This document shows positions 292 through 52,175 of a stretch of DNA of 64,000 nucleotides, one piece after another. The notes under the pieces are model-generated. The model worked only from the letters and a program-made list of their open reading frames with translations, had not been told where the DNA came from and did no database searches. The DNA comes from a virus. The position numbers and the translations under genes were made by a program. Location of the stretch: positions 1 to 64,000 of the IMG/VR virus record IMGVR_UViG_3300008119_000039. One strand, 5' to 3'. Each line of letters starts with the position of its first letter. Position 1 is the first letter of the stretch.

Positions 292-2780
292 TGATTTTTT
301 ATTCGCACGTATTCCCATTCGGCAACAAAATGTGTGTCCGTGGGTACGAGAATGGTAAACCCTTTCAACGCAAGATTGACTTTTATCCAACTCTGTATGT
401 AAACGCAAAGACTCCAAACACTGAGTGGGCTACTCTCACAGGGCAAGCTGTTGAAGAAATCAAACCTGGAACAGTAAAAGAAACACGAGAGTTTGTCAAA
501 CAGTATGAAGATGTCAGTGGCTTTGACATCTATGGTAATACCAACTACGTTTGTCAATACCTTAGCGACACTTATGAAAGTGATATTCGTTGGGACATGG
601 AACAGATCAAAGTGTTTACCATTGACATTGAGACTGCCACTGAGTCAGGATTCCCAGATATTAAATCAGCCAATGAAGAGATCCTATTAATCACGATTAA
701 AGATTTGCAGTCCAAGCGTATCATTACGTTTGGATCACGTGCATTTGTTCATGGTCGTGATGATGTAATCTACGTTCATTGTAAAGACGAACTGCACCTG
801 CTCAAAGAGTTTATGATTTGGTGGCAGCAAAACTACCCAGATGTTTTAACTGGTTGGAATATTAACTTCTTTGACGTGCCGTATTTAATCAAGCGTGTTT
901 CCCGTGAACTTGGCGAAACCATCGCCAATAAGTTTTCACCATGGGGTTATATCAATGAGCGTAAGATATTTGTTAAAGGTAACGAAGAAATCTCCTACGA
1001 CATTCATGGAGTTTCCCAGCTAGACTATCTTGACTTGTATAAAAAGTTTACTTATCAAAAGCAAGAGTCTTATCGTCTTGATTACATTGCACAAGAAGAA
1101 CTCGGTGATGCCAAGAAAGAAAATCCAGGTGATACGTTCAAAGACTTTTATAATGATCACTGGCAGCAGTTTGTTGAATATAACATCCACGACGTAGAGT
1201 TGGTTGATAAACTTGAAGACAAGATGCGACTAATTGAGTTGTGCCTAACTATGGCGTACAACGCAAAGATTAACTATGAAGATGTGTTCTCTCAAGTACG
1301 TATGTGGGATGCCATTATCTACAATCACTTGCGTAAGAAAAAGATTGCCATTCCAACAAAGACTGGTTCAAGTAAGAATGAACAGTTTGAAGGTGCGTAT
1401 GTAAAAGATGTTTTGGTTGGTGGTCATAAATGGGTAGCTTCCTTTGACTTGAACTCACTGTATCCGCATTTGATTATGCAGTATAATATCTCACCAGAAA
1501 CTCTTACCTCAGAAAAGATTAGCGTAACTGTTGACAAATTGCTGAACAAAGAAGTTGATACATCATATGCCAAACGTAGAGATCTAGCATTAACTGCCAA
1601 TGGTTGGACATATCGCAGAGACGTCAAAGGGTTTATGCCTGAGTTAATGGAAAAGATGTATGCCGATCGTTCAAAGTTTAAAAAGCAGATGCTTAAGATT
1701 GAACAAGAATATCAAAACGACAAATCCAAGAAAGATCTTCTCAAAGAGATTAGCCGACTGAACAATCTACAGATGGCTATGAAGATTGCACTGAACTCTG
1801 CTTATGGTGCCATGGGTAATCAGTACTTCCGATACTTTGATATTCGTATGGCTGAAGGCATTACTACCAGTGGTCAACTATCCATTCGTTGGATGGCGAA
1901 CAAACTAAACGCATTCTTGAACAAAACTCTCAAGACTGAAGGTAAAGACTTTGTTATTGCGATTGACACTGACTCAATCTATCTTACGCTTGAGCACTTG
2001 GTTGAGAAAGTTTGTGAAGGTAAAGATACTGCCGCAAAGATTAAGTTTATGGACAAGATCTGCGAAGAAGTCTTTCAACCATTCATTGATCAAGGTTATC
2101 AAGAACTAGCTGAGTATATGAACGCATACTCGCAAAAGATGATTATGAAGCGTGAGGTGCTGGCTGACAAAGGTATCTGGACTGCCAAGAAACGATATAT
2201 CCTTAACGTGCATAACTCTGAGGGTGTTCAATACGCAAAGCCCAAGCTAAAGGTAATGGGTCTTGAGATGGTTAAGTCAAGTACTCCTGCAGCAATTCGT
2301 GATAAGCTACGAGAATCTATTGATGTAATTCTTAAAGGTAATGAAGCTGACTTGCACGCATACATTGAAACATTCCGTGCCGAGTTTAACCAAATGCCTG
2401 TTGAAGCCATTGCATTCCCTCGTGGTGTTAATGGCTTGCGTCAGTATGCTGGTTCTCCGATCTATTCAAAAGGTACACCGATTCACGTGCGTGGTTCTCT
2501 GTTGTATAATCACTACGTTAAAAAGTTTGGACTAGATAGAAAGTACCAGCTAATTAAAGAAGGTGAGAAGATTAGGTTTATCTACGTCAAGAAACCAAAT
2601 CCATTTAATGAGGATGTCATTGCATTCCCGCAATCTATTCCTAAAGAGTTTGGACTTGAAGAGTTTATTGATTATGAACTGCAGTTTAAAAAGACTTTCC
2701 TTGACGCAATGCAAACTGTAATTGAACCACTTGGTTGGAAAGTTGAACATCAATCATCATTGGAAGACTTCTTTGGATAA
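291..2780 (+). CDS. 43: Family B DNA polymerase (T4 gp43-like)
   Basis: Replicative DNA polymerase with proofreading, 829 aa, slightly shorter than T4 gp43 (about 900 aa). The exonuclease motifs are visible: exo I FTIDIETAT near residue 110, exo II TGWNINFFD near 187, and exo III YNIHDVELVD near 297. Polymerase motif A is DLNSLYPHLI near 385, motif B is K.ALNSAYGAMGN near 497, and motif C is the metal-binding DTDS near 558. All catalytic carboxylates are present and the frame is intact. It follows the exonuclease with a TAATG overlap and is followed by an oxygenase whose start lies inside its 3' end. As in T4 it is close to uvsX and the replicative helicase. Confidence 0.97.
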   Translation: MIFYSHVFPFGNKMCVRGYENGKPFQRKIDFYPTLYVNAKTPNTEWATLTGQAVEEIKPGTVKETREFVKQYEDVSGFDIYGNTNYVCQYLSDTYESDIRWDMEQIKVFTIDIETATESGFPDIKSANEEILLITIKDLQSKRIITFGSRAFVHGRDDVIYVHCKDELHLLKEFMIWWQQNYPDVLTGWNINFFDVPYLIKRVSRELGETIANKFSPWGYINERKIFVKGNEEISYDIHGVSQLDYLDLYKKFTYQKQESYRLDYIAQEELGDAKKENPGDTFKDFYNDHWQQFVEYNIHDVELVDKLEDKMRLIELCLTMAYNAKINYEDVFSQVRMWDAIIYNHLRKKKIAIPTKTGSSKNEQFEGAYVKDVLVGGHKWVASFDLNSLYPHLIMQYNISPETLTSEKISVTVDKLLNKEVDTSYAKRRDLALTANGWTYRRDVKGFMPELMEKMYADRSKFKKQMLKIEQEYQNDKSKKDLLKEISRLNNLQMAMKIALNSAYGAMGNQYFRYFDIRMAEGITTSGQLSIRWMANKLNAFLNKTLKTEGKDFVIAIDTDSIYLTLEHLVEKVCEGKDTAAKIKFMDKICEEVFQPFIDQGYQELAEYMNAYSQKMIMKREVLADKGIWTAKKRYILNVHNSEGVQYAKPKLKVMGLEMVKSSTPAAIRDKLRESIDVILKGNEADLHAYIETFRAEFNQMPVEAIAFPRGVNGLRQYAGSPIYSKGTPIHVRGSLLYNHYVKKFGLDRKYQLIKEGEKIRFIYVKKPNPFNEDVIAFPQSIPKEFGLEEFIDYELQFKKTFLDAMQTVIEPLGWKVEHQSSLEDFFG

Positions 2781-6137: not shown

Positions 6138-7445
6138 ATGGTAAAAGTTATTGTAGCAGAAAACAAATATGATGCAAAACACATGTTGGGTCAATTTCCA
6201 ACTGAAGCAGATTACGATCTTTTAATTGAAGAAGATATGGACGTTTATATGCCAGAAGTTCCAGGACATCCTGAACTGACATATACCGAAGAACGTATTG
6301 TTCTTAAGTTTCGTAAGAATTACTTTACAAAAGAACAGCAAGAGCAAGCATACGTTGGTTTGAGAGAAGCTGCTGTTGAATCTCAGAATCGTGGTATTGC
6401 TGCTGGTCCACGTCAAGGTTCATTGGGTAATCGCCAGTGGGTAACAGACTACGAATATGATATGCTTGACGTATTCTTAAAGCCAAGTGAAAACTTGTTT
6501 GGTGACGATCCAGTTGAAGTTGTTCGCAATAAACATAAAAATATTGCTGCCAATGCTTCTAATCGTGCACGTGTTTGGTCAGTTGATGGTGTCAAGAAAG
6601 AGAACTTTGTATTTGACACTTGGGTTGATACTGTTCGTAAACTGACACCCGATGCTGCCAAAGCAGAAGCAGAACGTGTAGCTGAAGATCTTATCTGCGC
6701 AACAACTTACGCAAACTCAGTTCACTCTGGCATTGCTGGTTGGTTCGATAGATATCCACGCATTCCTTATGGTCGTGCCACAAGTTATACTCGTGACAAC
6801 TTTGACAAGTTTAAGATGGCCTTTCCTTTCTTACAAACTCTATCACAGGGTTTTAAAGAATTGTTACCGTGGAGATATGGCAATCAAATGGCAGCAGCAA
6901 ATAAACTAGATCCAAACTATTTGGTTCCAGGTACGCCATTTACTACCATTACCGTAAACAAAACTTTCCGTACTGCTTGCCATTATGATGCTGGCGATCT
7001 AACAAGTGGATTGTCTAATCTACTGACTCTTTCAAACACTGGTAACTATTCTGGTTGTTACTTGGTTGCACCTGAGTATCGTGTAGCGGTTAATGTGCGT
7101 CCAGGAGATTTGTTGTTGATTAATAACCACGAAGTTATGCACGGAAATACTGAAATTAAAGTGCACGATGAAATCTCAGAACGTATTAGCTTGGTTTGCT
7201 ACTTCCGTGAAAAGATGCTTGAGTTGGGTTCAAAAGAGTATGAAGATACTCGTTTCCAATTCGTTGAAGATCGTCGTAAGAATAAAGAACATCCAGAGAA
7301 CAGAGCATTGTGGAATGGCGTATCTCCAGGTATGTGGGAATCAGATGAGTGGTATGATTACCTACGCAGCAAACTTGGTGAAGAACAACTGGTGAAGTAT
7401 CATCCAGAATCACAAAAGGCTAACTCACTAGAAAGTTTCTTCTGA
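6138..7445 (+). CDS. TET/JBP-like 2OG-Fe(II) dioxygenase (predicted DNA base oxidase)
   Basis: 435 aa. The C-terminal half carries the signature I associate with phage TET/JBP-type nucleic-acid dioxygenases: TITVNKTFRTACHYDAGDL with H282 and D284, then a Gly-rich strand, VRPGDLLLINNHEVMHGNT with distal His 335, and an Arg near 349 in the last strand (ERISLVCYF), the probable 2OG ligand. In this family the enzyme hydroxylates the methyl group of 5-methylcytosine or thymine in DNA. The N-terminal 180 residues are charged and of unknown role. A strong ribosome site (AAGGAG) precedes the ATG. The stop overlaps the next gene (TGATG). No C5-cytosine methyltransferase is seen nearby, which favours thymine as substrate, but this is inference. 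Confidence 0.78.
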   Translation: MVKVIVAENKYDAKHMLGQFPTEADYDLLIEEDMDVYMPEVPGHPELTYTEERIVLKFRKNYFTKEQQEQAYVGLREAAVESQNRGIAAGPRQGSLGNRQWVTDYEYDMLDVFLKPSENLFGDDPVEVVRNKHKNIAANASNRARVWSVDGVKKENFVFDTWVDTVRKLTPDAAKAEAERVAEDLICATTYANSVHSGIAGWFDRYPRIPYGRATSYTRDNFDKFKMAFPFLQTLSQGFKELLPWRYGNQMAAANKLDPNYLVPGTPFTTITVNKTFRTACHYDAGDLTSGLSNLLTLSNTGNYSGCYLVAPEYRVAVNVRPGDLLLINNHEVMHGNTEIKVHDEISERISLVCYFREKMLELGSKEYEDTRFQFVEDRRKNKEHPENRALWNGVSPGMWESDEWYDYLRSKLGEEQLVKYHPESQKANSLESFF

Positions 7446-8122
7446 TGTGTGCCGTCATTGGAGCCATCCTGCAGAAACCAACTCTGCAGGATTTTGATAT
7501 GTTACATCGTGTATTCCTAGAGTCCAAGATTCGTGGTATGCACGCAACTGGAATATCTTATGTCAAGAATGACCGAGTTGTTACTGAGAAGCACCCTGTA
7601 CCTGCCAATGAGTTTCCTTTTAATTTTGCAGAGTATGTTAATGAAGATGGGAATCTCTACCTTATTGGTCACTGTCGTTACAGCACTAGCGATCTTGAGT
7701 ATAATCAGCCAATTGGTAATGATTTACATTCAATAGTTCACAATGGAGTTATCACTCAAGAACTACCAGAACGTTGGAAAGAATTGTATAATTATGATTG
7801 TGAAACAAAGAACGATAGCGAGTTAGTCCTACACTCGCATTCGCCACTTGAAGAGTTTCCTGATATGTCTATGGGTGTTTGTGAATTAACCAACGATAAG
7901 AAGCTACTTGCGTATCGTAACGGCAAGCGACCATTATACTTGACTAGTATTTCAAATGGATGTATAATTACTTCTACTGCTGATATTCCTAAACGTGCAG
8001 AAGTAGAAGGATTCCCTATTAACCTTTTACCAAACCACTATACTACATTTGATAGTGAGTTGGCTATGACTATTGAAAAGGTTAATATTGATGCTGTTGA
8101 TTACCAACTTATAGGTGACTGA
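7445..8122 (+). CDS. Class II glutamine amidotransferase (stand-alone)
   Basis: 225 aa. It begins M-C-A-V-I-G, so after Met removal Cys1 would be the Ntn-type nucleophile that releases ammonia from glutamine. Further family motifs are RGMHATGISY (Arg and Gly loop), GHCRYST near residue 78, HNGVI, and NDSELVLHSH. It lacks any synthetase or sugar-isomerase domain, so it must feed ammonia or act with a separate partner. The neighbour downstream is an amidoligase, joined through a TGATG overlap, and the upstream dioxygenase is also joined by TGATG. Stand-alone class II amidotransferases beside amidoligases are a recognised arrangement. A role in making an amide on a DNA base or small molecule is inferred. 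Confidence 0.85.
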   Translation: MCAVIGAILQKPTLQDFDMLHRVFLESKIRGMHATGISYVKNDRVVTEKHPVPANEFPFNFAEYVNEDGNLYLIGHCRYSTSDLEYNQPIGNDLHSIVHNGVITQELPERWKELYNYDCETKNDSELVLHSHSPLEEFPDMSMGVCELTNDKKLLAYRNGKRPLYLTSISNGCIITSTADIPKRAEVEGFPINLLPNHYTTFDSELAMTIEKVNIDAVDYQLIGD

Positions 8123-8997
8123 TGAACTATCCAAAAGAAAAATTTACATACGGTATGGAAATAGAGTGGGGTGATGTTCCTCGCTCTTTTTCAATTCCAG
8201 AACATCTTGGTACTTGGGAATACTCCGAGCGAGATATTATTAACCTACGTGATCCATACAAAAATGTATGTGCAGATCCATTGGGTGAAGATCCTCCATT
8301 TGGTGGCGAGATTAATACCAAGCCAACTCGTACTTGGGCTGGTCAAGTAGAACGATACTTTGAACTGCAGAAACTATTTACTGATGCTGGTCATCCACCA
8401 ACAGTAGGTGTTACTGCCCATACACACATTCACTGTCGCATTCCTGGATTGCGTGACGACATCGATGCACTAAAGCGACTAACCAAATATATTAAAGATA
8501 ACCAAACAACAACAGTTGATCGTGTTTATGGTTTCTATGACCACAATCAAATGAAAGGTGCCAAAGGTGCCAAGATGTATTTGAAGTTTGATGGTGGTCG
8601 CACTATGCCAGATTATATGAGTGATAACATTATCAATCTAGCCACTGACTTCAATTCTTTTATTAAGATGCACGCTGCAGGTAAAGATGGCGTTTCAATG
8701 GGTAGACCATTTCGTTATGCCATTAATATGTATGCACTGAAACATATTGATACTGTAGAGTTTCGTTTATTCCGTGGCACGTTGGATAAAGTAGAATTGG
8801 AATCTTGCTTTCGTTTCGTTGAAGACTTTCTTGATGCTGCATTAAATGATGGTGCCAGTGTAGATGATCTAATCAATACCAATGGTTATACGTTTCCACC
8901 AATGCAGTGGGATCTTGCTCAATTCATTGGATGGGAAAAGACAAAGCACCCAGAAGATCGTGGTGAGAAAGTGAGAACTCTTGTTGAGGTTGAGTAA
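8122..8997 (+). CDS. Amidoligase-like enzyme (COOH-NH2 ligase, glutamine-synthetase-like fold)
   Basis: 291 aa. The N-terminus YGMEIEWGDV is the acidic metal-binding strand expected of amidoligases (F/YG.E.E). GGEINTKPT, THIHCRIPG near residue 107, and VEFRLFRGTL near residue 213 are further conserved strands with His, Glu and Arg residues. Such enzymes use ATP to join a carboxylate to an amine. The gene overlaps the amidotransferase before it and the acetyltransferase after it, so the three are a translational unit. Peptide or glutamate-type ligation onto a metabolite or hypermodified base is plausible; the real substrate cannot be read from sequence. Confidence 0.72.
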   Translation: MNYPKEKFTYGMEIEWGDVPRSFSIPEHLGTWEYSERDIINLRDPYKNVCADPLGEDPPFGGEINTKPTRTWAGQVERYFELQKLFTDAGHPPTVGVTAHTHIHCRIPGLRDDIDALKRLTKYIKDNQTTTVDRVYGFYDHNQMKGAKGAKMYLKFDGGRTMPDYMSDNIINLATDFNSFIKMHAAGKDGVSMGRPFRYAINMYALKHIDTVEFRLFRGTLDKVELESCFRFVEDFLDAALNDGASVDDLINTNGYTFPPMQWDLAQFIGWEKTKHPEDRGEKVRTLVEVE

Positions 8998-9532
8998 ATG
9001 TTCACGTGATGATTTTGTAAATAGTATATCTACTGACAAGGGAGATAACTTTGCAAAAACATTTGTTGCTAAAGCAGATATGCAAGATCAATGGGAGTAT
9101 TGTATCGGTGCTTGGGATGGTAACGAATTAACAGCTGCAATTATAACTACCATATCCAAAAATAAACCCCACGTGGCTAACCTGCAACTCTTACATACCT
9201 TTGTAAAACACCGAGGAAAGGGAGCTGCCAGGATCCTATGCGAGGACTCTTTAAAGCGTGCTAGAGCGTCTGCAGCGACTTACTTTAGGGTATCCTCAGA
9301 GAAGTCTGCCGTAGGCTTCTACGAGCGTCTAGGGTTCCGATTCTGGGGTTCCCAAAAGAGTGGTTGTCAGCTGTCCATCTTTAGGATAGGGGGAGATACC
9401 TTCCTACAGGGCGACTACGACCTTTCCGACATGACCATCAATAAAGCGGTCAACCGTAAGGGTAAGGGAGGTTGTACGACCCTCTACGACCTTGCTACGA
9501 GCCAAATAGGGGTCAAATTAGATCAAATTTAG
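8981..9532 (+). CDS. GNAT-family N-acetyltransferase
   Basis: About 180 aa. The acetyl-CoA loop is LLHTFVKHRGKGAARILCE (R..GKGAA), followed by YFRVSSEKSAVGFYERLGF, the classic strand-helix end of a GNAT fold. No ATG is available in frame; TTG codons at 8981, 8984 and 8990 are candidate starts inside the 3' end of the amidoligase. The 3' half is visibly richer in GC than the neighbours (two 60-nt samples gave 50 and 52 percent against 40 percent in the amidoligase) and uses codons such as AGG and CTA more freely, suggesting separate acquisition. In the phage Mu Mom system a GNAT-fold enzyme modifies DNA, so a base-modifying role fits the context. Confidence 0.8.
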   Translation: MLRLSKCSRDDFVNSISTDKGDNFAKTFVAKADMQDQWEYCIGAWDGNELTAAIITTISKNKPHVANLQLLHTFVKHRGKGAARILCEDSLKRARASAATYFRVSSEKSAVGFYERLGFRFWGSQKSGCQLSIFRIGGDTFLQGDYDLSDMTINKAVNRKGKGGCTTLYDLATSQIGVKLDQI

Positions 9533-9533
9533 C

Positions 9534-9562
9534 TTTACTTTAATTGCAAAATAGGGTATAAT
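9534..9562 (+). promoter_or_regulatory. Sigma70-like promoter inside the modification cassette
   Basis: TTTACT (9534-9539), 17-nt spacer containing TTAATTGCAAA, TATAAT (9557-9562). It starts right after the GNAT stop and would drive the Cys-rich protein, the transferase-like gene and the kinase. Confidence 0.85.
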
Positions 9563-9589
9563 AAAGGTTGGACAATTGAGGAATTTATT

Positions 9590-9889
9590 ATGACACACTT
9601 GAGAAAAGAAAATTTAGCTGTTGTTACAAGAGAAATCGCAAAAGACCATTGGGTTGCAAACTTAGATGGAACTAAATCAAGAGCAGTTTCTTGGTGTAAG
9701 ACTTGTAGAGTTTATAAACCATTGACTGCATTTTATTTGAAATCAAAAAGTACAAGAAAACATAGCAATCATGTCAGAGGTGATTGTTGTATTTGTTTTG
9801 ATGAAAAGGTTAAATCATCAAGAGAGATACGAGAAGACTTACAAGCACAAAAATCATTAGGTAAAATCTTTCAGATAAATGGATTATAG
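9590..9889 (+). CDS. Small Cys-rich putative zinc-binding protein
   Basis: 99 aa. Two Cys pairs are seen: WCKTC near residues 35-39 and GDCCIC near residues 64-69, separated by a basic stretch with KSKSTRKHSNH. The spacing suggests one zinc finger, reminiscent of the N-terminal zinc region of HNH or endonuclease VII proteins, but no HNH catalytic motif follows. A GAGGA ribosome site precedes the ATG. It overlaps the next gene by 11 bases and lies under a dedicated promoter. A DNA-binding accessory to the adjacent transferase and kinase is possible; function unproven. Confidence 0.7.
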   Translation: MTHLRKENLAVVTREIAKDHWVANLDGTKSRAVSWCKTCRVYKPLTAFYLKSKSTRKHSNHVRGDCCICFDEKVKSSREIREDLQAQKSLGKIFQINGL

Positions 9890-10898
9890 GCTACAACAAA
9901 ATCGCAGAGAAGCATTCATACGCTGGTACGCATGGTCATTGAAGTATGATGATTGCGACCCAGCAGTATGGGCAACTAACTATATAAACGATCGTTACGA
10001 ACATAACGACGAGCAGAAACTTTGGTTGTGTTGGTTATATGGTAATACATACTATCTGCCAACTGCTTGGGTATTGATGAACGAGTTTCCCGACTATGAG
10101 TTGGCAACTGTTGATCGTATGACTCAATGGAATACTGCTAATTATAAACGTCTACGTTATCAGACTGACACAAAATGGAACAAGGGGCATCTTCCAACCA
10201 TGTTCGCATCGTATCAACAATTCATTGGTGGAAGAACACAAAGGGACAGATTGGAAAGTTATTATGGAAACACTGAGAAGGACAACTTTGATAACTTGTG
10301 GGAAGGCATTAAGTCTAGCTTGCATAAGTTTGGTCGTTACAGTACTTGGTTTTATCTTCAGCATCTTAAGCATACCTCTGGTGTTCGGATCGATCCTACT
10401 TCTCTCATGCTGGACGATTATGATGGCTCTCGCTCTCATCGTAATGGATTACTTTATGCCCTCGGACAAGAAGACAGTGTGGATAGAAAACTCACTGCAG
10501 TGGAGTATGCAAATCTTGAGTCACAAGCCCAAGAGATTCTTGCAGAGACGAAAGCAAGATTTCCAGAACTCGCATCGTCTATAGATTACTTTACAATGGA
10601 AACCTGCCTTTGTTCGTATAAGAAAATCTTTAGAGAACACCACGGCAGATACCTTGGGTATTACCTAGATCGTCAAGCTGAGGAAATTATTAAAGTTGAA
10701 GGTGATGGATGGTATGGTATTGATTGGGATGTGCTGTGGCAATCCCGAGAAGAAACTATTGATTTACGTCTAGATCACAAGCGTGGTATAGATAAAGAAA
10801 AGTTTAAGTATTTTACCAATACAGGTAAAATGGATAATCTTGAGTGGATGTTTGATGATGAACAGCGACAAGCTATTGGACTAGAGGAATTTTTATGA
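9879..10898 (+). CDS. aGPT-PPlase/AADT-like protein (predicted DNA base hypermodification transferase)
   Basis: 339 aa, mostly helical, rich in Trp and Tyr. The N-terminal half runs RREAFIRWYAWSLK, then DCDPA, then DEQKLWLCWLYG, then NEFPDYEL, and the middle has KFGRYSTWFYLQHLKH and DYDGSRSHRNGLLYAL. From memory this pattern matches the phage family grouped as alpha-glutamyl/putrescinyl thymine pyrophosphorylase or amino acid:DNA transferase, helical proteins that act with a P-loop kinase on 5-hydroxymethyluracil in DNA. The very next gene is such a kinase, joined by a four-base overlap (ATGA). I cannot name catalytic residues with certainty, and the family call needs a profile search. Confidence 0.55.
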   Translation: MDYRLQQNRREAFIRWYAWSLKYDDCDPAVWATNYINDRYEHNDEQKLWLCWLYGNTYYLPTAWVLMNEFPDYELATVDRMTQWNTANYKRLRYQTDTKWNKGHLPTMFASYQQFIGGRTQRDRLESYYGNTEKDNFDNLWEGIKSSLHKFGRYSTWFYLQHLKHTSGVRIDPTSLMLDDYDGSRSHRNGLLYALGQEDSVDRKLTAVEYANLESQAQEILAETKARFPELASSIDYFTMETCLCSYKKIFREHHGRYLGYYLDRQAEEIIKVEGDGWYGIDWDVLWQSREETIDLRLDHKRGIDKEKFKYFTNTGKMDNLEWMFDDEQRQAIGLEEFL

Positions 10899-11434
10899 GA
10901 AAATTGATTGCAGTTGGTGGTTCTCCAGGAACAGGTAAAACTACCTTGTTCCGTAAATTTATGGAAGGTAAAACTTGGGAGAGAGTTGAGCCCAAGAAAA
11001 TGTTACCTGCACTCTACTGTGCCGAGTTAGATCTTTACATTCTAGGCAAGTACGAAGATGGTGAAACATTCGCTGGAACAGATCGTTTAAGTATGGCTGT
11101 TCAACCAGTGGCTCAACAGTTCGTTAAGGAAACTACGTCAAATATCTTATTTGAAGGCGATCGTATCTTTAACCAGTCTTTCCTAGAATTCTCTATGGAG
11201 TTACCCGATACCGATCTACAAGTGATATTCCTAAAGGTTCCCAAGGAAATGCTTGAGCAAAGGTATAAGGATCGTGGATCCGACCAATCGGAGATATTCC
11301 TAAAGGGTCGTAATACTAAATATAATAACCTATTGTCAAATTTTGAGTTGATGCCGTACATTACTGAGTTTGTGAACACTAACTTAGAGGAGCAGGGGAA
11401 AGTTCTAACCTTTTTAGAAGGTCAATTAGGGTAA
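10895..11434 (+). CDS. P-loop kinase (candidate 5-hydroxymethyl-base DNA kinase)
   Basis: 179 aa. Walker A is GGSPGTGKTTL at residues 8-18. ILFEGDRIF near residue 86 supplies the Walker B-like acidic strand, and QVIFLKVP followed by RYKDRGSDQ is the lid region of nucleotide-kinase-type P-loop proteins. In thymine-hypermodifying phages a P-loop kinase phosphorylates 5-hydroxymethyluracil in DNA before an amino acid transferase replaces the phosphate. The tight coupling with the preceding transferase-like gene and the upstream TET/JBP-like oxidase supports that reading. A kinase for a nucleotide or another metabolite is the main alternative. Confidence 0.7.
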   Translation: MRKLIAVGGSPGTGKTTLFRKFMEGKTWERVEPKKMLPALYCAELDLYILGKYEDGETFAGTDRLSMAVQPVAQQFVKETTSNILFEGDRIFNQSFLEFSMELPDTDLQVIFLKVPKEMLEQRYKDRGSDQSEIFLKGRNTKYNNLLSNFELMPYITEFVNTNLEEQGKVLTFLEGQLG

Positions 11435-11454: not shown

Positions 11455-12162
11455 ATGAATTACCTAGAAACCGCAGACTTCAATTGGATGGAAATGCTCA
11501 ATTTCTATGAGCAACCATTTAGAGCTAAACTCATTCCATCAAAAGTATGGAGAGATCTCGACAAGTATAAAAACGATAGCGTTGGTTTAGCCAACTATAC
11601 TAAAAAGTGGCGTACCAAAATAGAGTTTAGAAAAGCACCATCTGCAGCAAAGGTTTGGAAAACCTACGCATCAATCGGTGGTGAATATTCCCCAGATGAA
11701 CGTCAGTGTGCCTTACAAATCTACACACTGGACTTTGATAAGTTTCCATTCACCAAGGTATCTTGGGATAGATTTAAGTATCGCTTTATTCAAACTCTGA
11801 TGCACGAGTTGATTCACTTTATGCAGTACGATCGTCGTGGTGACGAGTGGAGCAATTACGTATTACCGCATAAGAAAGTTGGTCACATTAAGAAAGATGC
11901 TGAGCGTAGATATCTTTCTGAGTTTGATGAGATACAAGCATACGCTCATTGCATTTATCTAGACTTTAAAATGTTTCGCCCAAGATTAGAGATAGAAACT
12001 TTACTTGGCAGAGCGGGACAATATACAGATTCAAAGACTTTACATTACTTCCTAAAGACATTCAACTACGACTACAAGAATAACGCTGCGATTCCAAAGA
12101 TAATGCAGCAGATTATCAAGTGGGACAACAAGTATCAACGATACGCCAACAAGCCTAAATAG
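11455..12162 (+). CDS. Putative zinc metallopeptidase with HELIH motif
   Basis: 235 aa. LMHELIHFMQYDRRGDEW gives an HExxH zinc motif at residues 117-121. A downstream segment YLSEFDEIQAYAH near residue 160 could provide the third Glu ligand, as in gluzincin-type proteases. The rest is rich in aromatic and basic residues. An AGGA ribosome site precedes the ATG. It sits between the modification cassette and probable virion proteins, so a role in maturation or host peptide cleavage is possible. No named family is claimed. A late-promoter-like CTAAATAG overlaps its stop codon. Confidence 0.65.
   Translation: MNYLETADFNWMEMLNFYEQPFRAKLIPSKVWRDLDKYKNDSVGLANYTKKWRTKIEFRKAPSAAKVWKTYASIGGEYSPDERQCALQIYTLDFDKFPFTKVSWDRFKYRFIQTLMHELIHFMQYDRRGDEWSNYVLPHKKVGHIKKDAERRYLSEFDEIQAYAHCIYLDFKMFRPRLEIETLLGRAGQYTDSKTLHYFLKTFNYDYKNNAAIPKIMQQIIKWDNKYQRYANKPK
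12155..12162 (+). promoter_or_regulatory. T4-late-like promoter box CTAAATAG
   Basis: CTAAATAG at the end of the zincin gene, 18 nt before the ATG at 12181. GCCTAAATAGTAGT is repeated identically at 21413, before another probable late gene. Confidence 0.5.
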
Positions 12163-23489: not shown

Positions 23490-24512
23490 ATGCTATACAT
23501 TGACAACAAATTTGCAAGTATTCTTGGATCACGTCTAAGAAACTTTAAACAAAAAAACGATTATCTGTGGAACTATTCTTGCCCAGTATGCGGGGATAGT
23601 TCTAAGAATAAATTAAAGGCACGTGGATACATCTACCGTAAAGGTTCTGATTTATTCGTTCGGTGTCATAACTGCAACTACGGTTCAAATCTTGGTAGCT
23701 TAATCAAGTATGTAGATGCTAAACTTTATGATGAGTACGTTCTTGAACGCTACAAAGGTGGTGCTAGTAAACACAACGCACACAAAGATGTGGCAGCAAT
23801 CCTCCCAGAAGAAACCCCAGAAGTATTTCTAGAAGATGCTATTCTAGAGAGTTTGGCTCGCCTAGATACGTTAGACATCACACACCCTGCTGTAAAATAT
23901 TTAATTAAAAGAAAGATTCCAAAACAATATTGGAATCTACTTTATTTTGCACCTAAGTTTAAAAAGTTTACCAACTCAGTAACACCTAAGTTTCAGGAAC
24001 CAATTGAAGGTGATCATCCAAGAATGATCATTCCGTTTTTTAACCCAGCAGGTAAATGTTTTGCTTATCAAGGTAGAGCGTATGGCGATGAGCAACCCAA
24101 GTACTATACAATTAAAGTTGATGAAACACAGGAGAAAATATATGGACTCGATCGCTTGGATTATAGCAAACGCATATACGTTGTTGAAGGACCAATTGAT
24201 TCGTTATTCTTACCGAATTCAATTGCTGTTTCAGGAGCAAGTTTTGATACCCCTACTATTCGGCAGTTACTTACTAATGCAACGATTGTAATGGACAATG
24301 AACCCCGCAATAAAGATATAGCAAGACAACTTGAAAAATATATCGATTTGGGGTATAATGTAGTTATGTATCCTGATTCAGTTCAGGAAAAAGATATTAA
24401 CGATATGGTTTTATCGGGTAGATCGCCTGATGAAATTCTAGAACTCATAAATACCAATACCTTCACTGGTATGGAAGCGAAATTAAAATATGCGAATTGG
24501 AGAAAGAATTGA
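23490..24512 (+). CDS. 61: DNA primase (T4 gp61-like)
   Basis: 340 aa, the length of T4 gp61 (342). The zinc motif is CPVCGDS near residue 31 and CHNC near residue 58. The Toprim core is YVVEGPIDSLFLP (Glu of the metal site) near residue 231 and IVMDNEPRNK (DxD-like Asp) near residue 268. It makes short RNA primers for lagging-strand synthesis and associates with the gp41-type helicase at 4731. The end overlaps thyX by four bases, so the two are coupled. A hairpin lies just upstream of the start. Confidence 0.93.
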   Translation: MLYIDNKFASILGSRLRNFKQKNDYLWNYSCPVCGDSSKNKLKARGYIYRKGSDLFVRCHNCNYGSNLGSLIKYVDAKLYDEYVLERYKGGASKHNAHKDVAAILPEETPEVFLEDAILESLARLDTLDITHPAVKYLIKRKIPKQYWNLLYFAPKFKKFTNSVTPKFQEPIEGDHPRMIIPFFNPAGKCFAYQGRAYGDEQPKYYTIKVDETQEKIYGLDRLDYSKRIYVVEGPIDSLFLPNSIAVSGASFDTPTIRQLLTNATIVMDNEPRNKDIARQLEKYIDLGYNVVMYPDSVQEKDINDMVLSGRSPDEILELINTNTFTGMEAKLKYANWRKN

Positions 24513-25189
24513 AAGTCAATTTAATTAGTTATAGTAAGCCCTCCATTACCATGTATGAAGAAGGTCTCAAAGATGCTCAAGAACTCATAGCTTATTGCGC
24601 ACGAGTTTCTAATCCAAGCAATCAATTTAATGTTGAAACAGCTGACAAGCTAATTCGTTATCTAATTAAACACAAACACTGGTCACCACTAGAAATGGTT
24701 AGTGCTTGTCTCGAAATTGAAACAACTCGAGATATTGCTCGCCAAATTTTACGCCATCGCTCTTTTAGTTTTCAAGAATTCAGCCAACGCTACGCAGATC
24801 CAACTAAGGACTTATCATTTGTCTTAAGAGAAGCAAGACTCCAAGACGAAAAGAATCGTCAAAATAGTGTAGAGTTACCAGCCACAATTGCTGGGCAGAA
24901 TATTGCTGAAGAGTGGTATGCTAGACAAAGAGAAATTCTAGCATTAGTGACAAAAACGTATGACTGGGCAATCTCACAAGGTATTGCTAAAGAACAAGCA
25001 AGAGCAATTCTACCAGAAGGAAATACAGTTAGTCGTTTATACATGAACGGTACACTGCGTAGTTGGATACACTACATCGAGTTGCGCAGTGGTAATGGTA
25101 CACAAAAAGAACATGTGGAAGTAGCAAGGGAATGTGCTAAAGTTATTGCTGAAGCATTTCCAATGTCTACGGATTTTATTAATCAATAA
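24509..25189 (+). CDS. thyX: Flavin-dependent thymidylate synthase ThyX
   Basis: About 226 aa. RHRSFSFQEFSQRY near residue 80 is the ThyX signature RHRx7S, with the Ser as substrate-binding residue. HWSPLEMVSACLEIE and RSWIHYIELRSG are other family motifs. It converts dUMP to dTMP with FAD, NADPH and methylene-tetrahydrofolate. There is no suitable ATG; TTG at 24509 has GGAG six bases upstream and gives the usual KVNLIS start, so it is preferred to TTG 24497. It overlaps the primase stop and precedes the RNR genes, a dNTP supply block. Confidence 0.92.
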   Translation: MKVNLISYSKPSITMYEEGLKDAQELIAYCARVSNPSNQFNVETADKLIRYLIKHKHWSPLEMVSACLEIETTRDIARQILRHRSFSFQEFSQRYADPTKDLSFVLREARLQDEKNRQNSVELPATIAGQNIAEEWYARQREILALVTKTYDWAISQGIAKEQARAILPEGNTVSRLYMNGTLRSWIHYIELRSGNGTQKEHVEVARECAKVIAEAFPMSTDFINQ

Positions 25190-35183: not shown

Positions 35184-35462
35184 ATGAGTATTTCCTCAAT
35201 TGAAGATCGTAAAAAGATTTTTGGTGCCATCCGTGAGATTAGTAATTCTATGGTTCGCATCGAAGCAGAACGTGATCTAATCAAAGACATCGTGAAAGAT
35301 GTTTCTGATAATTATCAACTTTCTCGTAAAGTTGTAAATAAGATGGCTAAAGTTTATCATAAACAATCACTATCTCAAACTGTTGCTGAACACGAAGAGT
35401 TTGTAGACATGTATGACCAAGTAACCAGTGCGAATAATACCAACACTGCACCCAACCCATAA
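35184..35462 (+). CDS. DsbA-like double-stranded DNA-binding protein
   Basis: 92 aa. MVRIEAERDLIKDIVKDVSDNYQLSRKVVNKMAKVYHKQ resembles the T4 DsbA/dsDNA-binding family: an amphipathic E..RI.AERD.IK.I helix, then a charged helix with K..AK/VYHK. T4 DsbA binds late promoters and assists late transcription. It overlaps the next gene by 35 bases. Assignment from memory of family pattern only. Confidence 0.6.
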   Translation: MSISSIEDRKKIFGAIREISNSMVRIEAERDLIKDIVKDVSDNYQLSRKVVNKMAKVYHKQSLSQTVAEHEEFVDMYDQVTSANNTNTAPNP

Positions 35463-36030
35463 GTACAAGTTACTTTATGTTTCTGGATACGCTCAGGAGG
35501 GTGATGGTACATTCGATGCTTTATTCTCAAAGACAACTATAACAGATAATTTTAAAGAACTTTTCTATAAAAATGAAATAGAAACATATGCGTGTGAGTT
35601 TAGTAAAACAGACACGCATTTTTCAGTGTATCATAAATGTAGAGAATTTGTTATAAAGAATAAAATTGATTTTGTCTTTGGTTTTTGCTATGGATCGTTT
35701 CCGTCTTTATACTCTGCCATAGATAGTAGTGTAAAAGGTGTTATTCTTTTAGATACTTCTACTATTCCTCCTGTTTGGTCTAATCGGGGAATTACCTCAA
35801 ACTTAACAAAACCAATTCCGCCAATTAAACTGGATAGTATAACATGTCCTGTTAAATTATTTTATTCAGAGTGGGGAGTTAATAATAAGATTAATACCTT
35901 TAATAAATTACAAACTGAGTTTATTAAAACACTTGACGTTGAAGTCATCCCAAATAGTACACATGCTATTATGCTTGAACCACAACGATATATCTTAATG
36001 GATAAAATAATGGAGTTTATAAATGCTTGA
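35428..36030 (+). CDS. Alpha/beta hydrolase-like protein with Cys nucleophile position
   Basis: About 200 aa. LLYVSGYAQEG is the first strand with the oxyanion region, and FVFGFCYGSFPSLYSA has the nucleophile elbow as G-F-C-Y-G, with Cys where esterases have Ser. The Asp strand may be LFYSEWGVNN and the His is in NSTHAIMLEP. Dienelactone hydrolases use Cys at this place, so it may be active. The start is uncertain: only a GTG at 35428 fits and overlaps the previous gene by 35 bases. Confidence 0.65.
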   Translation: MRIIPTLHPTHKYKLLYVSGYAQEGDGTFDALFSKTTITDNFKELFYKNEIETYACEFSKTDTHFSVYHKCREFVIKNKIDFVFGFCYGSFPSLYSAIDSSVKGVILLDTSTIPPVWSNRGITSNLTKPIPPIKLDSITCPVKLFYSEWGVNNKINTFNKLQTEFIKTLDVEVIPNSTHAIMLEPQRYILMDKIMEFINA

Positions 36031-36841
36031 CTATCCAGCTTGGAAAAATGGTAAGTACTGTAAAGTTAAAGATCTGACCGTATCAGTTCTTGATTTTGGT
36101 TTGATTCATTGTGATGCTACATATGATGTTCTTGCCGTTAAAAATGGCGAGATACAAAATCTCGAAGCACACCTGAGTAGATTTATTAACAGTTCACAGG
36201 GGTGGCGCATTCCAGTTGAATACTCTGATAATGATATTGAGATTGTAATTCAAACACTGGTGGCTATTGCTCCAACTGATGATCTATTAGTTTGGATTGG
36301 TTTAACACGTGGAACACCTACATCTGGCAATCCAAGAGATCTAGACAGTTGTAAACCTAATTTGTTTATATACGTTAAACCTTACTATGGTTTCAACAAG
36401 GATAACACAGCAACTGTTTGTTTGGCTAAACAATTACGCAATACTGCCATTGATCAAACAATGAAGAACTTTGCATGGAATGATTTAAACCTTGCACAGT
36501 GGGAAGCAATTGATCGTGGTTATGATACAGCTGTGCTAATAGACCATAGAGGTTTCTTAACTGAAGGTCCAGGATTTAATATGGGTATTGTCCGTGACGG
36601 TAAAGTTTATGCCCCAAAGCAAAATCGCCTGGAAGGCACAGTTATGAAACTTGTTGAACAGTTATGTGTGGAAAATAACGTACAGTTTAGTTGGGCTGCA
36701 ATATCACCTGAGGATTGTCTTGATGCAGATGCTATGTTTTTAACATCAACTGCTGGTAATGTTATTGCAGTAAAGTGTTTTGAAAATAAATATTTTAATG
36801 ATAATGAGATTTTAAAATGGTTACAACAGAAGTTAGTCTAG
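36023..36841 (+). CDS. Class IV PLP-dependent aminotransferase (BCAT/D-amino acid type)
   Basis: 272 aa. The fold-type IV pattern is clear: FGLIHCDATYDVLAVKNGEI at the N-terminus, KNFAWNDLNLAQWEA around the probable PLP Lys (residue 152), GFLTEGPGFNMGIVRDGKVYAPK (TEG.G.N and the phosphate loop), and LEGTVMKLV. It would move amino groups between branched-chain or D-amino acids and keto acids, or lyse aminodeoxychorismate. It lies between two alpha/beta hydrolases with short overlaps to each, an unusual phage auxiliary block. Substrate not readable. Confidence 0.85.
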   Translation: MLDYPAWKNGKYCKVKDLTVSVLDFGLIHCDATYDVLAVKNGEIQNLEAHLSRFINSSQGWRIPVEYSDNDIEIVIQTLVAIAPTDDLLVWIGLTRGTPTSGNPRDLDSCKPNLFIYVKPYYGFNKDNTATVCLAKQLRNTAIDQTMKNFAWNDLNLAQWEAIDRGYDTAVLIDHRGFLTEGPGFNMGIVRDGKVYAPKQNRLEGTVMKLVEQLCVENNVQFSWAAISPEDCLDADAMFLTSTAGNVIAVKCFENKYFNDNEILKWLQQKLV

Positions 36842-37614
36842 AACAAAACAAACATCTATTATTCCTACTACCAGGACAAAGTTTATCGCCACGTGTTTTC
36901 TGGGATTTTAAACTACCAGATGGTTACACGCATATAGATTATTTTCTTGCAGCAGGTATAGATGTAATCTTATTTGATCCATGCGGTTATGGAGAGAGTA
37001 CTGAGAATTATCAGTACGATAGGCTTGGGTATGCAGACCAGATTGAATCTGCAATCAAAGAACTTAAGAAAGAATATGTTTCTAAAACTGTATTTGGTTT
37101 CTCTACATCAACTGCTCCTGCATTGATTGCTGGTGAGAGAGGTTTATTTGATAAAGTTATTATTCATAGTCCATCTGTTCGTATGGATAAACGGTATTAT
37201 GTTGAGTTTGACACTGAGCACTTTGAGACTGGTATCGAAAAACTTAAAAAAGAAAGACTTGAGAAGATTAGTGATAAGTTGATTGGTACACCAAATAGAA
37301 TTGACGGATGGGAGCAAAAGATTGTTGACGTTATTGGCAGCACTACTTGGAAAGTTCCATCGCAACCTGTTTATGATATAAACAATTACTGGGTTGATAC
37401 AGGACAGTTAGGGTTCGATCCTGCAAAGGTTCCACCGATCTTAAGCATTATTGGTGAGTATGACTATGAATCAACCACAGGTGGTTATGATACCTTTAAG
37501 GAACTATTCCCTCAATCCAAGGAAGTCATTATTCCTCAGTCTACCCATTTTTCTATGTGGGAAAATTCCTCTGCCCTAACTCGTTTGGAGATGATCCAAT
37601 GGGTCTTGCAATAA
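36817..37614 (+). CDS. Alpha/beta hydrolase with GFSTS nucleophile elbow
   Basis: 265 aa. LLFLLPGQSLSPRVFWDF and FDPCGYGEST are the first strands, FGFSTSTAPAL has the nucleophile Ser (GxSxS instead of GxSxG), IIGEYDYES supplies the acid and STHFSMWE the His, so the triad is complete. Overlaps the aminotransferase by 25 bases. Esterase, lipase or amidase activity is possible. The partner at 35428 has Cys at the same place, so this pair may be diverged duplicates or a heteromeric set. Confidence 0.8.
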   Translation: MVTTEVSLEQNKHLLFLLPGQSLSPRVFWDFKLPDGYTHIDYFLAAGIDVILFDPCGYGESTENYQYDRLGYADQIESAIKELKKEYVSKTVFGFSTSTAPALIAGERGLFDKVIIHSPSVRMDKRYYVEFDTEHFETGIEKLKKERLEKISDKLIGTPNRIDGWEQKIVDVIGSTTWKVPSQPVYDINNYWVDTGQLGFDPAKVPPILSIIGEYDYESTTGGYDTFKELFPQSKEVIIPQSTHFSMWENSSALTRLEMIQWVLQ

Positions 37615-43671: not shown

Positions 43672-44235
43672 ATGACAACTACTAAACACGAGTGGTGGGC
43701 AACCCCAGTTTGGGAAATTGAAACTGGGTTTGACTCAACCTTTAATAATGAGTTATTGGTAGAAATTGAAAAGTGTAAACCACCAACAAATCCTTATATG
43801 TTTAACATATGGGATTATAATACACCAAATATAACTACACTAAAACAAAAGATACTTTCTGCTGCAAAAGAAAATGCATCACCTTATTTGGGACAGGCTT
43901 ATACATTTAATCCAATAATGTCACGTGGTTGGGTTAATCGTCAGCATCCTGGAAATTCTCTTGCACTACATAATCATGGCGATGCGATGTTGGCTTGCAC
44001 ATATTACATAAAAACTCCAAATAATAGCGGAGACCTTCAGCTAGTAGATCCACGTGGTGGCGTTAATTGGGATTTAATTAGAGAAGGTAATGTTATGGGC
44101 ATTAAATATAAACGCATAAAACCAACTGAAGGTAAGCTGGTTATGTTTCCTGCATTTTTAGTGCACATGGTAGAGCTAAATAAAAGTCAAACTACTAGGA
44201 TTAGTTTGGCTACTAACATTTATACAGGGAATTAA
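43672..44235 (+). CDS. 2OG-Fe(II) oxygenase (phage type, LVDPRGG signature)
   Basis: 187 aa. LHNHGDAMLACTYYIKTP holds HxxxD-type or HxD iron ligands, LQLVDPRGGVNW is a signature strand, GKLVMFPAFLVHMVELN gives the distal His, and TRISLATNI the 2OG Arg. A paralogue at 52176 shares LVLLDPRGGVMW and HPGYLVHFVEPT. Members hydroxylate protein or small-molecule substrates. A start with a poor ribosome site (ATG 43672) follows rubrerythrin by eight bases. Confidence 0.75.
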   Translation: MTTTKHEWWATPVWEIETGFDSTFNNELLVEIEKCKPPTNPYMFNIWDYNTPNITTLKQKILSAAKENASPYLGQAYTFNPIMSRGWVNRQHPGNSLALHNHGDAMLACTYYIKTPNNSGDLQLVDPRGGVNWDLIREGNVMGIKYKRIKPTEGKLVMFPAFLVHMVELNKSQTTRISLATNIYTGN

Positions 44236-44236
44236 A

Positions 44237-44911
44237 ATGAAACAATGGGTTGATTATCAATTAAAAAATCAAGTGCGTAACTGGGACTGGGAAAAGCGAG
44301 TTTACAAAATAGAAAATGTATCTCCAGTTCTTGGCGAACACTTCGATCAAATCGTGAATGGTATTGAAGATGGTTCAATTCCAACCAAATTTGAAAACGT
44401 ATTCTTTAATAAAGATTACATCGCAAGAACTGCAGCAAGCACCAATGGTGATGTCAGTGAAAACGATTTTAGAACTTGGTTGCTTGAGTACGCAGATTTA
44501 ATGTCTGGTCATGGTCACAATTATACTACCAACTTTGGTCCACACACCGAAGAAATTAATAAGAAATTTGCTGAGTTTTATAAACTAAAACTAGAAACAG
44601 TTTCTGCTAGAATTCAAATTGAAAAACCTGGACAATACTTTGTCGTTCATATGGATCGCCAGCGTTATAAAAAATGGACTTTAGATGAAGAAGTTGTTTA
44701 CGATAAAGTTCGTGATCAACATGCGCACGATATCTTTATTACATTCTTAACTGATCAACAGCTTGGTCAGAATTTTACTTTTGGATTGAATGCTATTAAT
44801 TGGAAGAAGGGTGACACCTTTACTTTTGAACATCAAAGTATCCCACACTACACTTCCAATGTTGGATATCATCCAAACTATATACTTGTTGTAACTGGCG
44901 AAAAGATTTAA
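44237..44911 (+). CDS. 2OG-Fe(II) oxygenase-like protein (HMD...H type)
   Basis: 224 aa. YFVVHMDRQRYKKW gives HxD (H-M-D), with HQSIPHYTSNVGYHPNYILVVTG providing the distal His on the last strands. IQIEKPGQYF precedes it as the first jelly-roll strand. This is the build of aspartyl hydroxylase/cupin-like dioxygenases. It starts one base after the previous stop, so both are co-expressed. Substrate unknown. Confidence 0.65.
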   Translation: MKQWVDYQLKNQVRNWDWEKRVYKIENVSPVLGEHFDQIVNGIEDGSIPTKFENVFFNKDYIARTAASTNGDVSENDFRTWLLEYADLMSGHGHNYTTNFGPHTEEINKKFAEFYKLKLETVSARIQIEKPGQYFVVHMDRQRYKKWTLDEEVVYDKVRDQHAHDIFITFLTDQQLGQNFTFGLNAINWKKGDTFTFEHQSIPHYTSNVGYHPNYILVVTGEKI

Positions 44912-47774: not shown

Positions 47775-48164
47775 ATGGCATACTCAGATAAAGTAATAGA
47801 TCACTACGAAAACCCACGAAATGTGGGTTCTTTCTCCAAAGAAGAGGAAGGTGTAGGAACAGGCATGGTTGGCGCACCAGCGTGTGGCGACGTGATGAAA
47901 CTTCAAATTAAGGTGGATGCAGATGGCATTATTAGAGATGCTCGTTTCAAGACATATGGCTGCGGTTCAGCAATCGCCAGTTCGTCGCTGGTTACAGAGT
48001 TGGTTAAGGGTATGCACATTGATGCTGCTAGTAGCATATCTAACTCTGAAATCGCACAAGAACTAGCCTTACCTCCAGTAAAGATTCACTGCTCAATCCT
48101 AGCAGAAGATGCCATCAAAGCAGCAGTTGCAGATTATAAAGCAAAGAATGATAACACTAACTGA
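47775..48164 (+). CDS. iscU: IscU-like Fe-S cluster scaffold
   Basis: 129 aa. The three scaffold Cys are conserved: GAPACGDVMKLQIK, KTYGCGSAIASSSLV, and PVKIHCSILAEDAIKAA, with Asp in CGDV. MAYSDKVIDHYENPRNVGSF is the IscU N-terminus. It assembles 2Fe-2S clusters for delivery to apoproteins. The LPPVKIHC motif, recognised by HscA in bacteria, is present in near-standard form, so it may work with the host chaperone system. It overlaps an A-type carrier by 17 bases. Confidence 0.93.
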   Translation: MAYSDKVIDHYENPRNVGSFSKEEEGVGTGMVGAPACGDVMKLQIKVDADGIIRDARFKTYGCGSAIASSSLVTELVKGMHIDAASSISNSEIAQELALPPVKIHCSILAEDAIKAAVADYKAKNDNTN

Positions 48165-52174: not shown

Positions 52175-52175
52175 T

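Follow-up and report, generated by a model that had tools for sequence, protein, structure and literature searches.

A probable post-replicative thymine hypermodification cassette with exchangeable modules in a T4-like freshwater phage

Layout of the locus

The window analysed here is a stretch of 64,000 nucleotides from the IMG/VR record IMGVR_UViG_3300008119_000039, itself an 84.5-kb fragment. Seven ORFs were found in place as initially annotated, all on the plus strand and almost gapless (Table 1). The overlaps were 1 bp for TET/GAT and GAT/AML, 17 bp for AML/GNAT, 11 bp for the Cys-rich ORF and ADDT, and 4 bp for ADDT and the kinase, the last pair being joined by ATGA as proposed. The first five genes had been described as joined; only four were, up to a 57-bp gap between GNAT and the Cys-rich ORF. 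The cassette started 9 bp 3' of a DnaB-like helicase gene. A putative metalloprotease followed the island in the 69 distinct complete islands compared below, and is the conserved right-hand boundary of a modular island, outside the pathway.

No cultured phage matched the region in BLASTN searches, and protein searches were therefore used instead. The same gene set was found in the same order in more than 100 IMG/VR contigs of uncultured T4-like phages, which is far more than chance would give. Of the seven genes, six make up a genuine base-hypermodification cassette: the TET/JBP oxygenase, the glutaminase, the COOH-NH2 ligase, the GNAT, the ADDT and the P-loop kinase. The seventh, encoding the Cys-rich protein, had been counted as part of the cassette and is probably a passenger outside the pathway. 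In relatives its slot held HNH, ParB-like or other genes, or was empty, which argues against the protein being a pathway enzyme.

The putative internal promoter of the initial annotation had a decent consensus, but promoter-like sites were not enriched in the region (16 found vs 20.2 expected from shuffled sequence, i.e., fewer). No enrichment was found for the T4 late promoter TATAAATA.

Table 1 Features of the locus and of its surroundings in the window.
Feature	Position	Strand	Evidence or remark
Polymerase C-terminal tag SLEDFFG	2757..2777	+	Own family B DNA polymerase, 291-2780
TET/JBP-family 2-oxoglutarate/Fe(II) oxygenase (TET)	6138..7445	+	PF12851, 5.2e-26
TET C-terminal tag SLESFF, predicted sliding-clamp-binding peptide	7425..7442	+	Same tail as DNA polymerase
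Stand-alone class II (Ntn) glutaminase domain (GAT)	7445..8122	+	PF13522, 7.1e-9
COOH-NH2 ligase/Amidoligase_2-like (AML)	8122..8997	+	Pfam 0.12, PHROG amidoligase 0.018
GNAT N-acyltransferase (GNAT)	8981..9532	+	PF13673, 1.3e-11; TTG start
Putative sigma70-like promoter consensus	9534..9562	+	TTTACT-17-TATAAT
Cys-rich zinc-ribbon/HNH-like small ORF	9590..9889	+	Weak HNH/EndoVII PHROG matches, 7e-4
Amino acid:DNA transferase family (ADDT)	9879..10898	+	PF18724, 3.9e-22
ADDT C-terminal tag GLEEFL, predicted clamp-binding peptide	10878..10895	+	Motif in 110/111 relatives
P-loop kinase, Ploopntkinase3 (KIN)	10895..11434	+	PF18751, 4.1e-8
HExxH putative metalloprotease	11455..12162	+	Right-hand boundary of the 69 islands compared
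ThyX, makes dTMP	24497..25189	+	PF02511, 6e-43; present in G000, G001, G002, G003, G010

Protein families of the cassette

The TET/JBP-like oxidase named initially was borne out by the Pfam profile search, in which its Tet_JBP domain reached 91.3 bits vs a curated cut-off of 34.9. The HxD...H iron ligands and the 2OG-binding Arg of TET (H282, D284, H335 and R349) showed ≥99% conservation across 77 relatives, and homologues with 42–49% identity were found in C48C1 and in the cultured Caulobacter phage Cr30 and Stenotrophomonas phage DLP6. The enzyme is predicted to hydroxylate the 5-methyl group of thymine within DNA.

Profile matches also upheld the amidotransferase (GATase_6) and the GNAT. 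The former had its N-terminal catalytic Cys (C2) and glutamine-binding residues (R78, N100-G101 and D124) conserved in 117 relatives, and the latter carried the acyl-CoA motif RGKGAA. An AsnB-like ORF (46627-47766), without a Pfam match and 35 kb distant, was rejected as a glutaminase partner. For the proposed amidoligase the profile match was weak, below the Pfam Amidoligase_2 cut-off (12.6 bits vs 22, with 16.5 for its homologue in phage Simon), but conserved motifs and the structure model spoke for it. ExE, GGEINT, HxH, RxxxN and TxEFR were invariant, the protein fitted a GS/GCS2 fold with ExE...H...R...ExR motifs, and Foldseek matched the model with YbdK (prob 1.00) and glutamine synthetases, at E ~1e-3 and TM ~0.4.

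The ORFs starting at 9879 and 10895, annotated before as an aGPT-PPlase/AADT-like protein and a P-loop kinase, fell into the ADDT (79.6 bits vs a cut-off of 26.2) and Ploopntkinase3 (33.4 bits vs 27) families, and not into unrelated ones. ADDT had ~29% identity with Ackermannviridae proteins, and homologues in ViI-like phages. The kinase, whose Walker A motif GGSPGTGKTT was invariant among relatives, is predicted to be a 5-hydroxymethyl-pyrimidine DNA kinase; a member of its family adjoins TET and ADDT in mycobacteriophage VioletZ. PDB sequence searches with TET, the glutaminase, ADDT and the kinase gave no useful match, and an ADDT scan of GTDB genomes revealed neither a relative in cells or prophages nor a host.

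Exchange of modules among relatives

On related viral contigs we compared 69 islands, all of them complete and distinct. GAT, GNAT, ADDT and KIN were found together in 58 of them and were all missing from the other 11. The replacement was strict, with a gene for a TET-associated glycosyltransferase (TAGT, 4.8e-19) or one resembling a glycosyltransferase sitting directly behind TET instead. The 335-aa product of the variant-C gene, which we take to be glycosyltransferase-like only from where its gene lies and from an apparent alpha/beta pattern, had a structure model too poor for classification (pLDDT 49). Six module changes were mapped on the TET tree, indicating repeated swapping. The alternation of the ADDT block with glycosyltransferases suggests that TET makes a hydroxymethyl base, which would be capped by alternative modules. 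Such swapping of amine-type vs sugar-type blocks resembles an arms-race response to modification-dependent restriction.

The strict replacement behind TET also argues against a role of these genes in making a small molecule or modifying tRNA or protein, with TET a mere neighbour. Amidoligase, GATase and GNAT are known to occur as sets for making peptides and metabolites (Iyer 2009, as cited by PMC7824862), and LUZ24/tf-like phages pair an amidoligase with a GATase without TET. Nevertheless, TET, ADDT and GNAT have C-terminal tags like that of the polymerase, and phage Simon offers an ADDT and hmdU-kinase context; we consider such a role very improbable.

Thymine or cytosine as target

ThyX was encoded in the window and, like gp45-type clamp genes, in all four relatives of ~160 kb (G001, G002, G003 and G010), which speaks for normal T being incorporated into the DNA first and modified afterwards. 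Cytosine-C5 methyltransferases (PF00145) were found neither in these four nor in six further records, and dUMP hydroxymethylases (PF00303) were not found in G000, G001, G002, G003 and G005. Together, these results suggest thymine as the likely substrate of the cassette. With ThyX present instead of PF00303, the cassette would be a TET-initiated variant and not the classical route. The earlier proposal that the hydroxymethyl group is made in DNA thus gained support from the genes missing in near-genome-length relatives. The closest cultured homologue of the ligase was found in a hmdU-type operon of the unrelated phage Simon, together with ADDT, hmdU-kinase domains (HMUDK_hel 1e-42) and a dUMP-hydroxymethylase-type gene.

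Alternatively, TET could oxidise 5-methylcytosine to 5-hydroxymethylcytosine, followed by phosphorylation and decoration. Characterised phage TET systems are reportedly active on 5mC, and Methylophilales phage Melnitz, the only one in which a C5-cytosine methyltransferase was found, encodes it beside TET and the same kinase family, so that the kinase alone is no proof of thymine. A cytosine target is quite unlikely, however, given the lack of the methyltransferase in the records searched and the hmdU genes that accompany AML and ADDT homologues elsewhere.

Polymerase-like C-terminal tails

TET and ADDT ended in short tags resembling the tail of the phage's own DNA polymerase. The motif xL[DEQN]xF at the C-terminus, defined after the sequences had been inspected, was found in TET (121/125), ADDT (110/111), TAGT (5/5) and the polymerase (51/57), and in 0/1110 members of 40 other protein families. 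GNATs carried it in 90/110 and 16/27 cases, the latter being relatives of the window's GNAT, whose own copy was degenerate. The kinase, the glutaminase and the ligase were without a tag. T4 gp43 ends in ASLDFLFG, and the C-terminal tail of the T4 polymerase binds the clamp. The T4 alpha-GT binds gp45 (PMC13216743). We predict that the tails of TET, ADDT and the GNATs, hydrophobic L-x-x-F peptides of the T4 gp43/gp55 type, are clamp-binding peptides copying the polymerase tail; that of TAGT may be one as well. Such tails point to a coupling between modification and replication, and would give a simple, testable rule for spotting unknown base-modifying enzymes in T4-like phages.

Proposed pathway

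The gene content makes it very probable that thymine in the phage's own DNA is oxidised and that a group containing nitrogen is then added to it. We have fair confidence in the full reading, clamp tethering included, of a post-replicative thymine hypermodification cassette in a T4-like freshwater phage. Once thymine is part of the DNA, TET/JBP would hydroxylate it to 5-hydroxymethyluracil, the P-loop kinase would put a phosphate on the hydroxymethyl group, and at the ADDT step this phosphate would be displaced by a nitrogen nucleophile. GNAT would cap the resulting amine and, in the window's variant, the ATP-dependent amide ligase would extend it. The stand-alone glutaminase would provide ammonia for a step common to all variants, either the ADDT step or the amidation of an added amino acid. 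The C-terminal peptides would hold TET, ADDT and the GNATs at the replication fork.

The initial annotation proposed that the amidotransferase, the amidoligase and the GNAT could elaborate the amino acid; the glutaminase, however, tracks ADDT and not the amidoligase. In 44/58 ADDT-type islands it was found without any amidoligase, which excludes the ligase as the general acceptor of ammonia, and the association of the glutaminase with ADDT suggests the use of glutamine-derived ammonia. The same count weighs against an M6/ViI-type transfer of a whole amino acid by ADDT, in which the glutaminase and the amidoligase would amidate the carboxylate and GNAT would acetylate the amine; thymine would then carry the amide of an N-acyl amino acid, the version favoured by the initial annotation. 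This chemistry is possible, if somewhat unlikely; it agrees with the family name of ADDT, with the homologues in ViI-like phages, and with the window's ATP-dependent COOH-NH2 ligase lying next to the glutaminase.

Cr30 had TET, ADDT and a related kinase without a GATase_6 match, suggesting that ammonia is not universal for ADDT. This negative is weak, since the same search missed the known GAT of G000 and G001. In its most specific form, the clamp-tethered pathway would have TET making hmU behind the fork, the kinase activating it, and ADDT with the glutaminase swapping the phosphate for glutamine-derived ammonia to 5-aminomethyl-dU. Acylation by GNAT or extension by the GS-fold ligase would then give an undescribed base, and the exchanged glycosyltransferases of sister phages may be clamp-tagged. 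We regard this exact version as unlikely.

Comparison with known systems

Triads of TET, ADDT/PPlase2 and kinase are already known from actinophages. Rhodococcus phage Tonitrus has a published thymidine-hypermodification cluster (PMC11955845), and in both Tonitrus and VioletZ the TET/JBP, ADDT/aGPT-PPlase2-type transferase and 5hmU/P-loop kinase genes are adjacent, as in the window. In contrast, the clusters of these unrelated phages list no glutaminase, amidoligase or GNAT, and those of VioletZ and Margaery adjoin terminase genes.

The thymidine hypermodification systems of phages M6, ViI and PhiW-14 (PMC6449724) share with the cassette a hydroxymethyl-dU intermediate, a DNA kinase and amine/amino-acid transfer, and their ADDT homologues are ~29% identical. 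They use a dUMP hydroxymethylase at the nucleotide level, whereas no PF00303 gene was found here and TET would act in DNA. In the operon of Simon (PQ683277.1), too, ADDT and a kinase accompany an amidoligase (29% identical), but the route is of the dUMP-hydroxymethylase type, no TET was found nearby, and there are an extra DAO oxidase and LMW phosphatase.

In TET+TAGT systems the corresponding locus holds a TET of the same family with alternative capping, by a sugar vs an amine/amide group; here, these systems and the ADDT block were mutually exclusive. The CmoX/CmoY carboxymethylcytosine-glycine amide system (PMC12783734) also extends a phage DNA base with an ATP-dependent amide ligase, and some of its relatives have glutamine-hydrolysing domains. 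It differs in acting on cytosine, with a C5-MTase homologue using Cx-SAM and an AMP-forming ligase, not a GS-fold amidoligase; no C5-MTase-type CmoX was found in G001, G002, G003 and G010.

Three features appear to be new within the searchable literature: the branch with amide/acyl chemistry, the swapping of blocks and the clamp tags. In hundreds of contigs from uncultured T4-like phages, the cassette would widen thymine hypermodification to amide/acyl chemistry, which starts from a hydroxymethyl group produced in DNA and not at the nucleotide level.

Cassette genes and their surroundings

All seven plus-strand ORFs of the initial annotation were confirmed: four overlap head to tail and, after a 57-bp gap, three more overlap. 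A DnaB-like helicase gene directly precedes the cassette, with UvsX-like and family B polymerase genes farther upstream. The polymerase shared ~55% identity with its counterparts in T4-like cyanophages. The record holding the window is an 84.5-kb viral fragment.

Pfam matches above the curated cut-offs bore out the proposed TET/JBP oxidase (TET_JBP, 5e-26), amidotransferase (GATase_6, 7e-9), GNAT (1e-11), transferase (ADDT, "amino acid:DNA transferase", 4e-22) and kinase (Ploopntkinase3, 4e-8). For the amidoligase, the Pfam match (0.12) was below the cut-off, but the ExE, GGE-N-T, HxH, R-x3-N and TxEFR motifs were invariant among its relatives. Its AlphaFold model (pLDDT 72) matched the GCS2 protein YbdK with probability 1.00. 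The model also overlapped in part with many glutamine synthetases, at E ~1e-3 and TM ~0.4. Motifs and model fit the COOH-NH2 ligase superfamily. Three sets of residues were strictly conserved: those binding iron and 2OG in TET, the catalytic residues C2, R78, N100-G101 and D124 of the glutaminase, and the Walker A motif of the kinase.

The Cys-rich ORF, previously counted as a cassette member, gave only weak zinc-ribbon/HNH matches. In the closest relative, its slot was occupied by an HNH gene; elsewhere the slot held ParB-like genes, other genes or nothing. Because of this variation we treated the ORF as a passenger. ParB-like proteins of ~430 aa, recognized by eye, recurred beside cassettes, and other base-modification clusters also have ParB-domain proteins.

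Features of the window and of the loci compared
Feature	Sequence	Positions	Content
Cassette	window	6138-11434	TET, glutaminase, amidoligase, GNAT, Cys-rich ORF, ADDT, P-loop kinase
Aminotransferase	window	35428-37614	class IV (PF01063, 9e-32), flanked by two alpha/beta-hydrolase-like ORFs
Oxygenase/methyltransferase loci	window	43672-44911; 51440-55328	small 2OG-Fe oxygenase-like ORFs and two SAM methyltransferases (by eye); 51440-52174 without Pfam match
TctC-type ORFs	window	44921-45814; 56476-57354	two tricarboxylate transporter binding protein-like ORFs (by eye)
ATP pyrophosphatase-like ORF	window	46627-47766	SGGVDS motif of the N-type (asparagine synthetase-like); no Pfam match
Iron-sulphur assembly-like ORFs	window	47775-48770	three adjacent small ORFs, one IscU/NifU-like and two IscA/ErpA-like (by eye)
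Phage Simon operon	L152	4852-12531	ADDT, DAO oxidase, amidoligase, LMW phosphatase, hmdU-kinase-type protein, HMUDK helical domain (1e-42), PF00303 gene (2e-22)
Methylophilales phage Melnitz	L151	4010-8090	C5-methyltransferase (7e-55), TET (4e-11), same P-loop kinase family; 427-aa gene in between
Caulobacter phage Cr30 (cultured)	L148	14001-22894	TET, ADDT (1e-52), TAGT-like protein, P-loop kinase, spread over 9 kb
Radical-SAM protein	L058	6881-8392	Pfam 9e-16
Radical-SAM protein	L139	11017-12513	
ParB-like protein	L033	4375-5670	
ParB-like protein	L151	6269-7552	

Target base

A C5-cytosine methyltransferase was not found in the near-genome-length relatives G001, G002 and G003 (~160 kb each; the G001 TET was 97% identical to that of the window) nor in G010, and a thymidylate-synthase-type hydroxymethylase was not found in the first three. 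All four encoded ThyX and a gp45-type clamp. With ThyX present and the other two enzymes not found, ordinary T should enter the DNA. TET acting on T is then the one way to a hydroxymethylpyrimidine that can be seen in these phages.

Among cultured phages, Simon, an unrelated 61-kb phage whose record carries no annotation, had the closest amidoligase (29% identical, 4e-23). Its operon gives independent support for thymine as target. Its amidoligase-phosphatase pair was repeated in a contig of the window's own group (L116). A counter-example is the Melnitz locus, which likely corresponds to the cassette but acts on cytosine; the presence of the kinase by itself therefore does not identify the base. 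The Cr30 genes are annotated in the record as "SNF2 DNA repair", hypothetical or terminase small subunit.

Islands in related phages

Scans of IMG/VR gave 319 TET relatives, 80 of which were fetched, and 292 ADDT relatives. We counted 69 distinct islands, with TET at one border and a conserved HExxH protein at the other; as related sequences, these are not 69 independent events. Glutaminase, a GNAT, ADDT and kinase were all present in 58, with amidoligase and GNAT as in the window in 14 and a different GNAT without amidoligase in 44. The remaining 11 had none of the four genes and instead carried TAGT, a TET-associated glycosyltransferase (4.8e-19; five islands), or a putative glycosyltransferase-like 335-aa gene followed by a small HAD-like ORF (variant C; six islands). 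Islands mixing the two types were not seen among the 69.

In the TET phylogeny, at least six changes are needed to account for the four module types, and a glycosyltransferase-type clade is sister to the window's clade (100/99). Module swapping thus occurred several times. In the simplest reading, a hydroxymethyl base made by TET is capped by alternative modules. A few relatives (L058, L135, L137, L139) had a radical-SAM gene between ADDT and kinase, as expected of further decoration.

C-terminal tails

Similar C-terminal ends were found in TET (SLESFF), ADDT (GLEEFL), the alternative GNAT (PSLEEFLV), TAGT (NTLDEFFG) and the phage polymerase (SLEDFFG). The pattern xL[DEQN]xF, at most two residues from the C-terminus and defined after inspecting the sequences, was present in TET (121/125), ADDT (110/111), polymerase (51/57), TAGT (5/5) and two GNAT families (90/110 and 16/27). 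Across 40 other families it was absent from all 1110 members, and 0.23% of internal positions matched it. The window GNAT has a degenerate tail (KLDQI); kinase, glutaminase and amidoligase do not carry the tag. The putative variant C glycosyltransferase-like protein carries an N-terminal MSLHEFLG, invariant in 6/6.

T4 gp43 (ASLDFLFG) and gp55 (SPSLDFLYEAND) end in gp45-binding tails. T4 gp45 co-purifies with alpha-glucosyltransferase, not with beta-GT (PMC13216743). We infer that these tags tether the DNA-acting enzymes to the clamp.

Other loci in the window

The oxygenase/methyltransferase loci are perhaps another biosynthetic island. A tRNA cluster comes right after the iron-sulphur-type ORFs. 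TctC-type ORFs are unusual for a phage.

Proposed pathway and known systems

The best supported order is TET, kinase, ADDT, then GNAT and amide ligase. TET would convert T in DNA to 5-hydroxymethyluracil (hmU), the kinase would phosphorylate it, and ADDT would displace the phosphate with a nitrogen nucleophile. GNAT would act next, joined in the window's variant by the amide ligase. The glutaminase is not fused to a synthase domain, and all complete islands with ADDT and kinase also had it, whether or not an amidoligase was present; glutamine ammonia therefore most likely feeds a step shared by all ADDT-type islands. In the boldest version, ADDT itself would use ammonia, giving 5-aminomethyl-dU that is then acylated by GNAT. 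For the window's variant, the product may instead be an added amino acid carrying both an amide and an acyl group, in line with the first proposal.

In Rhodococcus phage Tonitrus, the annotation already groups TET, PPlase2/ADDT and 5hmU kinase into a thymidine-hypermodification system (PMC11955845), and in Mycobacterium phage VioletZ we found TET (3.5e-6), ADDT (8e-9) and Ploopntkinase3 (4e-72) adjoining one another. In M6, ViI and PhiW-14, hmdU is made at the nucleotide stage and, once in DNA, receives a phosphate before it is substituted (PMC6449724), whereas the TET of the cassette would hydroxylate T in DNA. Carboxymethylcytosine is a known case of a phage base extended by amide ligation (PMC12783734). 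Part of the combination could already have been predicted in Iyer 2013, Lee 2018/2022 or Burke 2021. As far as searchable papers tell, three features are new: a glutaminase/amidoligase/GNAT branch in a thymine pathway that TET initiates, the exchange of this branch as a block for glycosyltransferase modules, and polymerase-like tails on modification enzymes.
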